From positions 1 to 64,000 of the forward strand of contig CANLEH010000006.1 of the NCBI GenBank assembly GCA_947489665.1: a DNA stretch of 64,000 bases, read 5' to 3'. Under the pieces are notes generated by a model that ran no database searches, was not told the origin of the DNA, and was given only the letters and a program-made list of their open reading frames with translations. The stretch comes from an uncultured Roseicyclus sp. (GTDB taxonomy: Bacteria; Pseudomonadota; Alphaproteobacteria; Rhodobacterales; Rhodobacteraceae). The position numbers and the translations under genes are program-made. Of this stretch, positions 3,148-7,138 are shown one piece after another (the first letter of the stretch is position 1; each line of letters begins with the position of its first letter).

Positions 3148-3801
3148 TCAGGCGGCGGACGCAAGCCCCGGAACGTCTCGCAGGTCGGCGGCGGCCATTT
3201 GCAGCGCGGCGAGCGCGGTTTCAAGGCGCGTGTCGAGGTCCGGCAGGGCCAGCGGCAATGTCGTGCCGAGAGCGGCTAGCGGAGCGTGCGGTGCACCGAC
3301 GGGAACCGCAAGGCCGCAAACGCCCGCCTCATAAGCGCCGCGGATTACCTGAGCGGGTTGATCGCTGCCCTGCAGGACCTGCCCGATAGCCGTGGTGTCG
3401 AGGGGCAGTGTGGAGCCGACCGTCAGGCCAAGCGACACCCGCGCGCCTGGACGTGCGGAATGGGCCACGTAGACGGCGACAGTATCGTCGCGCAGGGCAA
3501 GGCTGATCTCACCCCCCAAGGCTTCGGCATGGGCGTTGAGCGTGGGTTGCACGGCGCGCCCGAAGCTGCCTGCTTGCAGGAAAGCGCCAGCCGGGCGCAG
3601 CACGCGGGGGGCAAGCGAGAAGGCGCGGCCCTGCTGGCGGGCCCATCCGGCCTCCACCAGCGTCAGGGTCAGGCGGCGGGCGGTGGAGCGGTCCAGCCCG
3701 GTGCGGTCCGCGATCTGGCTGAGCGTAAGCACCGGCGCGCCTTCGAAGGCAGACAGGACGCCGAGGCCTTTGAGAAGAGTCGTCGAGAGGGTTTTGGACA
3801 T
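3148..3801 (-). CDS. IclR-family transcriptional regulator
   Basis: 217-residue regulator with an N-terminal winged helix-turn-helix (LTLSQIADRTGLDRSTARRL) followed by the IclR effector-binding domain (residues about 80-215, including the GVCGLAVPV segment). IclR members are usually about 250 residues, so this one is short. An in-frame ATG 45 bases upstream (3846) would give 232 residues; neither start has a strong ribosome site, and I chose the one nearest the domain. It is divergent from the Rieske oxygenase gene and shares with it a 97-bp intergenic region that holds a perfect inverted repeat, so it most likely controls that operon. The effector is unknown, presumably an aromatic acid or the pathway substrate. 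Confidence 0.85.
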   Translation of the reverse strand: MSKTLSTTLLKGLGVLSAFEGAPVLTLSQIADRTGLDRSTARRLTLTLVEAGWARQQGRAFSLAPRVLRPAGAFLQAGSFGRAVQPTLNAHAEALGGEISLALRDDTVAVYVAHSARPGARVSLGLTVGSTLPLDTTAIGQVLQGSDQPAQVIRGAYEAGVCGLAVPVGAPHAPLAALGTTLPLALPDLDTRLETALAALQMAAADLRDVPGLASAA

Positions 3802-3858
3802 CTGCGCGCTTTCGTTGACAGGGGGAGGAAAGCGCGTCACGCTCATAAAGTCAACAAA

Positions 3859-3875
3859 TGTGCGTATATCGCACA
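3859..3875. promoter_or_regulatory. Probable IclR operator palindrome
   Basis: TGTGCG-TATAT-CGCACA is a perfect 6-bp inverted repeat with a 5-bp AT spacer. It lies between the divergent IclR gene and the Rieske oxygenase gene. Operators of IclR regulators of aromatic catabolism (PcaR/PcaU/PobR type) have similar short GC-ended palindromes with AT centres, so this is the best candidate binding site. Confidence 0.6.
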
Positions 3876-3897
3876 AATCCAGCGGAGGGTCGTGCCC

Positions 3898-5211: not shown

Positions 5212-6500
5212 CGACAGACGATATTCTCAAACTGGTGGAGAAGGACGGGATCGAGACGATCCGCGTGGTCTTCACCGATCCGCATGGGGTGTTGCGGGGC
5301 AAGACGGTGACGGCGAGCGCGCTGCCGGGGGTGTTGCGCGATGGGCTGCGGGTGCCGTCGACGCTGCTGTTGAAAGACCTGTCACACCGCACGGCGTTTC
5401 CGGTTTGGGCGGGCGACAGTGCGCCGATGCAGGGGGCGTCGGATGTGGTTCTGCGGCCCGATCCGGCGACGTTTCACAAGCTGCCTTGGTCGCCGCATTC
5501 GGCGCTGATCCATTGCGATGTGGAAAGTCCGTTTTGTTCGCGTGGGATTTTGCGCCGCTGCGAGGAGGCTTTGGCCGAGGCGGGGCTGCGCGCGACGATG
5601 GGTGTGGAGATTGAGTTTCAGGTGTTTCGGGTAGTGGACCCGTCCTTGGGGCCTGCGCAATCCACCATGCCTGGCGCTCCGCCGCGGGTGGAGAACACGA
5701 CGCAAGGCTACCAGTACCTGACCGAGACGCGATATGCCGAGGTCGAGCCGATGCTAGACCGCCTGCGCCGCGCGGCGGAGGAGATGGGGATCGACGTCCG
5801 CTCCGTCGAGGTGGAGATGGGGCCGTCGCAGTACGAGGTGACATTCGCGCCGGGCACGCCGATGGACGTGGCCGAGCAGGCGGTGAATTTTCGGATGTTG
5901 GCCAAAGAGTTGAGCCATCGCCACGGGCTGCTCGCCAGCTTCATGCCCAAGCCCGCGCTGCCGAATGCGGTGGCGAATGGGTGGCATATTCATCAGAGCC
6001 TTTCGGGCGATGTCGATATGGGCCACTGGATCGCGGGCTTGCTGGAGCACGCCCCGGCCTGTGCGCTTCTGACCAATCCGACGGTCAACAGCTACAAACG
6101 CTTCACGCCCTATCAACTCGCCCCGACCCGCATTGGCTGGGCGCGCGACAATCGCGGCGCGATGGTGCGGGCGTTGGAGGATCGGGTGGAAAATCGCCTG
6201 CCGGACAGCGCGGCGAACCCGTATTTCGCCTTGGCCGCGCAGTTGATCGCGGGCCGCGCGGGCCTGTTGGCAAAGCAGGATCCAGCCCCGGAGATGACAG
6301 ACCCTTATGGCGGCGATGCGCCTGCTTTGCCGGGCAGTTTGGGTGAGGCGATTGAGGCCCTCGCGGCCTGCGGCACGTTGCGTGAGGCGTTGACGCCGGA
6401 GGTGCACGATTGGCTCATCACGCTCAAGCGACACGAATGGAACCGCTACCTTTCGCACATCTCGGATTGGGAGCAGGCGGAGTATTTCGTCAACCTTTGA
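5208..6500 (+). CDS. Glutamine synthetase-like gamma-glutamyl ligase
   Basis: 430-residue protein of the glutamine synthetase superfamily. Visible metal/ATP and substrate motifs are [26 protein letters not shown] (the GxHxHxS signature) and [13 protein letters not shown] near the C terminus. The start is taken as TTG at 5208, which overlaps the stop of the Rieske gene (TTGA). The in-frame ATG at 5142 would overlap that gene by 70 bases. Relatives in catabolic operons (PuuA, gamma-glutamylanilide synthase, IpuC) attach glutamate to an amine rather than make glutamine. Its position between an oxygenase and 3-hydroxyanthranilate dioxygenase favours such a role, for example masking an amine before or during oxygenation. 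That role is inference; a true glutamine synthetase is less likely because the normal glnA context is absent. Confidence 0.82.
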
Positions 6501-6595
6501 TATCCGCTTTGTGGATAGCGGGCGCGGAAATCGGCCCTTGCGGTTATATCGGGGCGCGGCAAACTGAACGGCGACAGACACGGGGAGATTTCAGT

Positions 6596-7138
6596 ATGGG
6601 ACGGCTTTCTGCCTTCAATTTCAAAAGCTGGATCGACGAGCATCGCCACCTTTTAAAACCGCCGGTCGGCAACAAGATGGTGTTCGAGGACAGCGATATC
6701 ATGGTGACGGTCGTGGGTGGGCCGAACAAACGGACCGATTACCATGACGACCCAGTGGAGGAGTTCTTCTACCAGCTGGAAGGCGACATGGTCCTGAAGC
6801 TTTATGATCAGGGCGAGTTCTATGATGTCCCGATCCGGGAGGGCGAGATATTCCTGCTGCCGCCCCATGTGCGCCACTCGCCCCAGCGCCCGATGGAGGG
6901 CTCCGTTGGGCTGGTGATTGAACCGAAGCGGCCTGAAGGGGCTGTGGATGCGATTGAATGGTATTGCTTCAATTGCGGAACGCTGGTGCACCGGGCGGAG
7001 CTGCACCTGACCTCCATCGTCGATGATCTGCCCCCCGTCTACGCCAAGTTCTATGCCTCGGAAGAGGCAAGGACCTGTGGGTCTTGTGGGGAGGTGCATC
7101 CGGGGAAGGAACCGCCGGAGGGCTGGGTAACGCTGTAG
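6596..7138 (+). CDS. nbaC: 3-hydroxyanthranilate 3,4-dioxygenase
   Basis: 180-residue cupin. Its residues match the bacterial enzyme throughout: iron ligands H50, E56 and H94; substrate-contacting R46, R98 and E109; and the second rubredoxin-like metal site C124-x2-C127 and C161-x2-C164. Each is offset by one position from the numbering I recall for the characterised Cupriavidus enzyme. It opens the ring of 3-hydroxyanthranilate to 2-amino-3-carboxymuconate semialdehyde, which either cyclises spontaneously to quinolinate or is decarboxylated. GGGGAG lies 8 bases before the ATG. It is the third gene of the oxygenase operon. No decarboxylase (ACMSD) gene is in the window. The symbol follows the 2-nitrobenzoate pathway; haaO would serve equally. 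Confidence 0.93.

Follow-up and report, generated by a model that had tools for sequence, protein, structure and literature searches.

A candidate route of 3-hydroxyanthranilate degradation without the canonical decarboxylase, encoded beside a Rieske oxygenase and glutamyl ligase gene pair

The window analysed here is a 64,000-nucleotide stretch from an uncultured Roseicyclus sp. of the family Rhodobacteraceae (GenBank assembly GCA_947489665.1, contig CANLEH010000006.1, positions 1 to 64,000), in which an earlier note had read three adjacent genes, for a Rieske oxygenase, a glutamyl ligase and a 3-hydroxyanthranilate (3-HAA) dioxygenase (HAO), as one operon of an undescribed aromatic-amine pathway. 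We find that the trio consists of parts of two separate gene sets: module A, with the Rieske oxygenase and the ligase, and module B (6596-14991), with HAO, a DctPQM TRAP transporter, a LysR regulator, an aspartate dehydrogenase (AspDH), a molybdenum aldehyde oxidase and a DapA-like aldolase. When animals and bacteria break down tryptophan, 3-HAA is a central intermediate; once its ring has been opened, the known catabolic step is catalysed by the decarboxylase (ACMSD) of 2-amino-3-carboxymuconate 6-semialdehyde (ACMS). With moderate confidence, we propose that module B encodes a complete lower 3-HAA pathway that bypasses this decarboxylase, and that module A is a separate unit beside it.

Composition and conservation of module B

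The genes of module B, with the TRAP transporter at 7245-10099, are:

6596..7138, + strand, predicted 3-hydroxyanthranilate 3,4-dioxygenase (HAO), with which module B begins; above the cut-offs of TIGR03037 and NF009763
7245..8228, + strand, TRAP substrate-binding protein DctP (Pfam DctP)
8292..8840, + strand, TRAP small permease DctQ (Pfam DctQ)
8837..10099, + strand, TRAP large permease DctM (Pfam DctM; above the TIGR00786 cut-off)
10092..11045, - strand, LysR regulator of module B, PcaQ-like (TF_pcaQ, 209 bits, below the cut-off of 304)
11047..11811, - strand, aspartate dehydrogenase, AspDH (NF009828, 321 bits against a cut-off of 177)
11933..14041, + strand, large subunit of the molybdenum aldehyde-oxidase/xanthine-dehydrogenase type (MoCoBD_1, MoCoBD_2, Ald_Xan_dh_C)
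14038..14991, + strand, DapA-like class-I aldolase of the N-acetylneuraminate lyase superfamily, a proposed hydratase-aldolase (Pfam DHDPS, 112 bits)

HAO scores 267 bits against TIGR03037 (cut-off 146), aligns without gaps across 166 residues with 1yfu (252 bits) and retains R46, H50, E56, H94, R98, E109 and four C-terminal cysteines, which we take to be the catalytic and metal residues of the enzyme. This strong family membership argues that HAO is a 3-HAA dioxygenase, as the earlier note had proposed, and the assignment held on every sequence measure tested, family scores and residues alike.

Among 394 genomes sampled from the family, HAO was matched at 1e-20 in 44. A search with the DapA-like protein recovered exactly this set minus two genomes, G128 (31% identity, internal stop) and G379 (46%), and the two genes thus co-occur in 42/42 genomes each way (Fisher 1.3e-54). 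Five of these genomes (G031, G038, G073, G220 and G389) carry both HAO-TRAP and the DapA-like gene, the latter together with its partners, on different contigs, and the association therefore goes beyond synteny. AspDH (threshold 1e-15) was likewise found in all 42, compared to 6/38 HAO-negative controls taken in handle order, although in G220 only as a fragment at a contig end; in 8/42 genomes it and the DapA-like gene are on separate contigs. A class-wide search of 385 genomes revealed the DapA-like gene in 23, four of them family members; of the 19 outside the family, 12 have HAO nearby on the stretch (partial in L209), and six of the other seven have it elsewhere in the genome.

Stretches of ~20 kb or less around HAO were taken from 40 of the 43 HAO-positive genomes other than the window's own (G128 and G379 were left out and G214 was added later). 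On these 40 stretches the DapA-like gene was present in 33, AspDH in 25 and a LysR homologue in 25, while uptake genes were present on 33, in the form of DctM in 21 and an ABC binding protein in the remaining 12. A recurrent neighbour is an alpha/beta hydrolase, which is encoded on 12 of the 40 (L142 at 15499-16401; L125, L129, L133-L140 and L145) and might have a formamidase-like role on an N-acylated precursor, and a 292-residue permease, of the DMT type by eye (L144 at 10474-11349), lies between the DapA-like gene and HAO in five clusters. PreT/PreA-like and hydantoinase-like genes seen by eye beside HAO-TRAP in some genomes were judged to be neighbours, not partners.

Besides HAO, AspDH and the DapA-like protein, the module contains an aldehyde-oxidising enzyme that comes in two forms. 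The molybdenum large subunit occurs in 23 genomes, the window included, an NAD aldehyde dehydrogenase in 18, and both in none, which accounts for 41/41 readable clusters at limits of 40% identity over 400 residues for the former and 50% over 250 for the latter (40 stretches); G325 (L137), cut by a contig end, was left out, the molybdenum subunit of G220 is a partial match, and a more distant aldehyde dehydrogenase (32%) lies near one molybdenum-type cluster, L130. On a DapA tree of 34 rows, from which L032 was left out as the same genome as L126, the switch between the two forms amounts to four changes, at least two of them on starred branches. Because unrelated enzymes replace each other, this swap suggests that they share a reaction, namely aldehyde oxidation. 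Among the clusters with an aldehyde dehydrogenase is that of Ruegeria sp. THAF33 (L197).

The DapA-like protein carries the Pfam DHDPS domain and the Schiff-base lysine that place it in the N-acetylneuraminate lyase/DHDPS superfamily, and Lys177 (in the motif AIKYS), GKQGE and WSHPDSGY are invariant in 35/35 aligned sequences. Its reaction is not readable from homology, because it falls far below every named NCBIfam cut-off (the DapA, NanA and KdgD equivalogs give 77 of 206, 77 of 281 and 83 of 374 bits).

A proposed route from 3-hydroxyanthranilate to aspartate

The canonical route is represented in our material by a contrast cluster (L199) that encodes RidA, HAO, ACMSD, a hydratase and an acetylating aldehyde dehydrogenase and gives no DapA hit. 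With its ACMSD (confirmed by 548 bits to 2hbv) as query, no match was found at 1e-5 in the window's own genome, and none of orthologue strength in the 42 family genomes, eight of which have weak matches (best 33% identity, 135 bits). Distant ACMSD chains in the PDB (2wm1, 4ofc and others), presumably human, score 235-239 bits with the same query. The sole Amidohydro_2 match of the window's own genome returned from the PDB two proteins called Amidohydrolase 2 and no ACMSD.

Judging from gene partners and chemistry, we propose that HAO opens the ring of 3-HAA to ACMS, the step for which family membership argues, and that the molybdenum enzyme, or elsewhere the NAD aldehyde dehydrogenase, would oxidise the aldehyde of ACMS to 2-amino-3-carboxymuconate. 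In the ketimine form of this compound a double bond would be conjugated to the amino-bearing C2, where the DapA-like protein could form its Schiff base; hydration of the adjacent double bond and retro-aldol cleavage between the former C1 and C6 would then yield iminosuccinate (or oxaloacetate and ammonia) and malonate semialdehyde. AspDH would reduce iminosuccinate to aspartate and has an obvious substrate in this scheme, since the cleavage would supply it. The oxidation could also come after the cleavage, and the balance closes (C7H7NO6 + H2O = C4H5NO4 + C3H4O3). The HAO product is reported to be a semialdehyde (PMC5817917). No paper describing a route through HAO, a DapA-like protein and AspDH was found among those listed in searches of an open-licence library. 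If the proposal holds, a widespread bacterial route would avoid ACMSD, lead in four steps to aspartate plus a C3 unit and prevent ring closure of ACMS to quinolinate; it would also correct the labels 'dihydrodipicolinate synthase family', 'aspartate dehydrogenase' and 'succinate-semialdehyde dehydrogenase', and point to the TRAP transporter as one for 3-HAA or a precursor.

Several observations weigh against this proposal. The best named model for the DapA-like protein, of the KdgD type, gives only 85 of 278 bits, and the protein has Trp150-Ser151 where DapA relatives carry Tyr-Asn. AspDH reaches 160 of the 207 bits required by the NadX equivalog TIGR03855, and those of its matches in other genomes that are 36-48% identical may not be orthologues. 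No gene for an iron-sulphur or FAD partner was found beside the molybdenum large subunit in the window; Fer2_2 small-subunit matches number three in the genome, and the closest of those on this contig is ~220 kb off (C6:235798). Furthermore, 7/40 HAO stretches have neither TRAP nor ABC genes in reach, and one fragmented genome outside the family (G615) has the DapA-like gene and no HAO match.

Two other accounts of module B were weighed against the same data. The DapA-like protein could be a Schiff-base decarboxylase in place of ACMSD, removing the 3-carboxylate (as from a beta-imino acid) to give 2-aminomuconate or its semialdehyde, from which the canonical route would follow. The lack of an orthologue-strength ACMSD would fit, as would the presence among the nearest models of KdgD, a type of dehydratase in this superfamily that decarboxylates too; however, a RidA-type protein was detected near only L169 and L209 among 71 stretches, the canonical L199 apart (tblastn at 1e-12, strict for a short protein), no canonical-tail enzyme was recognised among the recurrent module B neighbours read by eye in part of the clusters, and the AspDH present in 42/42 genomes would be left unexplained. 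We regard this account as unlikely. Still far less probable is a role in NAD synthesis, in which HAO would lead from 3-HAA to quinolinate and AspDH would supply iminoaspartate: both AspDH (as NadX) and HAO have NAD-biosynthetic roles, but quinolinate synthesis needs neither the TRAP or ABC uptake genes found on most HAO stretches nor the constant aldehyde-oxidising enzyme and aldolase.

As for the substrate of the proposed lower pathway, 3-HAA is indicated by the kynureninase or nitrobenzoate-type genes that some clusters contain. A kynureninase above the TIGR01814 cut-off is encoded in each of L147, L149 and, on an Ensifer plasmid, L198, all three of them module B clusters, and in L200, a cluster on a Rhizobium plasmid, module B is flanked by genes for a PnbB-domain protein and a flavin reductase. 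The latter two are likely to constitute a second 3-HAA feeder, because a nitroreductase and a mutase produce 3-HAA in the published 2-nitrobenzoate route (PMC5817917). A feeder scan of 71 stretches at 1e-12 found none in the rest, bar a weak PnbB-type match in L141.

Further readings were considered and set aside. The window's own genome has, on another contig, slightly overlapping open reading frames for tryptophan dioxygenase and kynureninase (G000, C2:342-345 kb, L167), which could tie HAO to a kynurenine pathway, but no ACMSD match. The homarine pathway of marine bacteria is tied to an N-methylglutamate dehydrogenase (PMC13390433), and none was seen here. Finally, the main text on indole-acetate loci (PMC11630574) features no Rieske protein, glutamine synthetase or 3-hydroxyanthranilate.

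Module A and its link to module B

Upstream of HAO, the window contains:

3148..3846, - strand, IclR-type regulator beside module A (Pfam HTH_IclR, IclR_C)
3859..3875, no strand, operator-like palindrome TGTGCGATATACGCACA between the IclR and Rieske genes
3898..5211, + strand, single-subunit Rieske oxygenase, LigXa_C/phthalate-dioxygenase-like (Pfam Rieske, LigXa_C)
5208..6500, + strand, glutamyl ligase with the fold of glutamine synthetases, most similar to NpaA1 (Pfam, NCBIfam and comparison with solved structures)

The genes and strands of the Rieske-ligase-HAO trio are as the earlier note gave them: the ligase start, TTG at 5208, overlaps the Rieske stop through TTGA (translation could also start from another in-frame TTG, at 5142), and 95 bp separate the ligase from HAO. 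This spacing makes a single operon plausible, yet conservation does not support a single pathway unit. When the Rieske protein was searched against GTDB contigs and the best 80 loci were kept (63-96% identity; more matches exist, and many of the loci are short contigs), a ligase match adjoined the Rieske gene in 78, the two others being L056, where a contig end cuts it, and L062, which is not cut. HAO lay within the flanks of only four of the 80, from two lineages: L002, L003 and L004, which have the order of the window, and a Rhodosalinus locus (L032) with another order. The exact order Rieske-ligase-HAO was seen only in the window and these three relatives (L002 is the same genome as L111/G378). 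Conversely, HAO is found without the Rieske gene (E 1e-100) in 27/42 module B genomes, and always with the DapA-like aldolase and AspDH, and with an aldehyde-oxidising enzyme where readable, partners that the earlier note had left unconsidered.

Among solved structures the ligase is closest to NpaA1 (251 bits, the next best giving 157), and it stays below the cut-offs of the glutamine synthetase equivalogs (204 of 429 and 206 of 470 bits) and of gamma-glutamylputrescine synthetase (NF045547, 183 bits against 650). It carries PYQLAP at the position of PGYEAP in the glutamine synthetase 7tdp, a motif whose glutamate we take as a criterion for glutamine synthetases; the strict pattern P[YF]x[LMI]AP fits 42 of 77 clustered ligases, the glutamine-synthetase-like pattern used fits none of them, many of the ligases outside the strict pattern have H or G in second place and 15 lie outside a wider pattern too. 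By these measures it is no ordinary glutamine synthetase. The Rieske oxygenase retains the Rieske and Fe-site motifs, and its best solved relative is 9ina (234 bits).

The window's IclR regulator does not reach the cut-off of the PcaR/PcaU/PobR model (112 of 285 bits), and a homologue of its type (threshold 1e-10) lies within the flanks of 34/80 Rieske loci, with none detected in L003 and L004, so that separate control is a frequent, not a constant, trait. Common control of modules A and B is possible in L003 and L004, as the trio there has no detectable IclR gene. Within the 64 kb the palindrome TGTGCGATATACGCACA occurs once, compared to 0.01 sites expected. Exact copies of its half-sites were found in 6/219 loci: L002 and L111, which are one genome, L006, L009 and L156, where they precede the Rieske gene, and L045, where they precede the IclR gene; in 16 loci checked by script, looser variants were found in L032, L012 and L020, and the others do not share it. 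A promoter scan gave no sigma-70 sites, and terminator-like sites numbered 7, compared to 10.3 in shuffles.

Elsewhere the partners of module A are varied, including an ABC transporter and an AMP ligase in L055, PaaA in L064 and PaaZ in L035, which suggests aromatic catabolism without pointing to a single substrate. A fuller operon is seen in L077 (5418-13372) and L079 (5476-13190), with a TRAP transporter, a ferredoxin-like protein (called by eye, without a Pfam hit), a ferredoxin reductase, the Rieske oxygenase, the ligase and a CHMI-like isomerase. In L072 (339-9914) the pair lies beside a second Rieske enzyme of the ring-hydroxylating type and a P450, with a ferredoxin, a short-chain dehydrogenase (SDR) and an aldehyde dehydrogenase by eye, and glycine cleavage genes follow the pair in several loci (for example L022, 3234-7684; the H protein was identified by Pfam in the L010 member, the T and P proteins by eye). 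In the window itself, a 929-residue molybdopterin oxidoreductase, formate-dehydrogenase-like by eye (207-2996, - strand), is divergent to the IclR-Rieske region and keeps this position in L002-L004.

The two modules are nonetheless found together more often than expected. Genomes with the Rieske gene (1e-100) and those with HAO/DapA overlap in 15/394 compared to 4.9 expected (p 1.1e-5, uncorrected for phylogeny), and among these 15 the Rieske gene of G220 has an internal stop and the one in G139 shows 60-66% identity. The modules are physically linked in three different orders of genes, namely in the window clade, Rhodosalinus (L032/L126), where the ligase ends ~70 bp from the DapA-like gene, and G139 (L151). 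As at least three of 14 within 15 kb would be expected with a probability of ~1.4e-4 (a post hoc estimate), a functional tie between the modules is likely.

What this tie might consist of was weighed in two ways. Module A could make 3-HAA for module B: the ligase would glutamylate an anthranilate-type amine, the Rieske enzyme would hydroxylate the carbon adjoining the nitrogen, and the product would be passed on after removal of the glutamyl group. The genome overlap and the three linked orders, the likeness of the ligase to NpaA1 and the retention of the trio without IclR in L003 and L004 are in favour, as is the occurrence of other likely feeders in other module B clusters. However, 31/46 Rieske genomes have no HAO/DapA, and the product of module A therefore cannot always be 3-HAA; most module B genomes have no Rieske gene, no deglutamylating enzyme was recognised beside the Rieske-ligase pair, glutamylation systems of the aniline type lose the amine, and the enrichment carries the limits given above. 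We consider such feeding, and with it the earlier note's formation of 3-HAA by glutamylation and hydroxylation, possible but doubtful. Kynureninase or nitrobenzoate-type genes are likely 3-HAA sources in some other HAO clusters. Alternatively, the adjacency could be chance and without meaning, which would leave module B itself unaffected. Most carriers of one module do not have the other nearby, and the few Rieske loci with HAO come from only two lineages; the three linked orders argue the other way, and we regard a chance origin as possible, if on the improbable side. Each module by itself is kept in many genomes, which goes beyond chance. A combined reading, in which module B is an undescribed tryptophan/kynurenine branch where a hydratase-aldolase of the DapA type cleaves 2-amino-3-carboxymuconate directly into iminosuccinate and malonate semialdehyde, with the ring nitrogen ending up in aspartate and not set free, and module A is a glutamylation-dependent feeder that makes 3-HAA from an aromatic amine and keeps the amine, seems improbable to us. 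In our main reading, module A is a separate unit of the aromatic-amine type beside module B, possibly serving as one of several feeders.

Comparison with known systems

The AtdA/NpaA operons, which act on aniline and 1-naphthylamine by glutamylation before oxidation, have a two-subunit Rieske oxygenase and an amidotransferase-like protein. Unlike these, the window has a single-subunit, phthalate-dioxygenase-like oxygenase, and neither a second oxygenase subunit nor an amidotransferase was found among the ten window proteins scanned by Pfam. The likeness lies in the ligase, which is nearest to NpaA1 and adjoins a Rieske oxygenase; NpaA1 glutamylates anilines and naphthylamines (PMC11335346).

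For module B, the DapA-like protein resembles the hydratase-aldolases NahE and PhdJ of aromatic meta-cleavage in its superfamily and in the proposed hydration followed by retro-aldol cleavage through a Schiff base. NahE-type enzymes carry out the analogous reaction on hydroxybenzylidenepyruvate, whereas the substrate here would be an aminocarboxymuconate. The window AspDH is above the L-aspartate dehydrogenase subfamily cut-off, but it is below TIGR03855 and is located in a ring-degradation cluster. With the canonical 3-HAA/2-nitrobenzoate (nba/onb) pathway, which comprises HAO, ACMS decarboxylase, a dehydrogenase, a deaminase and OnbGHIJ (PMC5817917), module B would share the ring-cleavage enzyme, its substrate and an aldehyde-oxidising step; in place of an orthologue-strength ACMSD, it has a DapA-like aldolase and AspDH as its constant partners.

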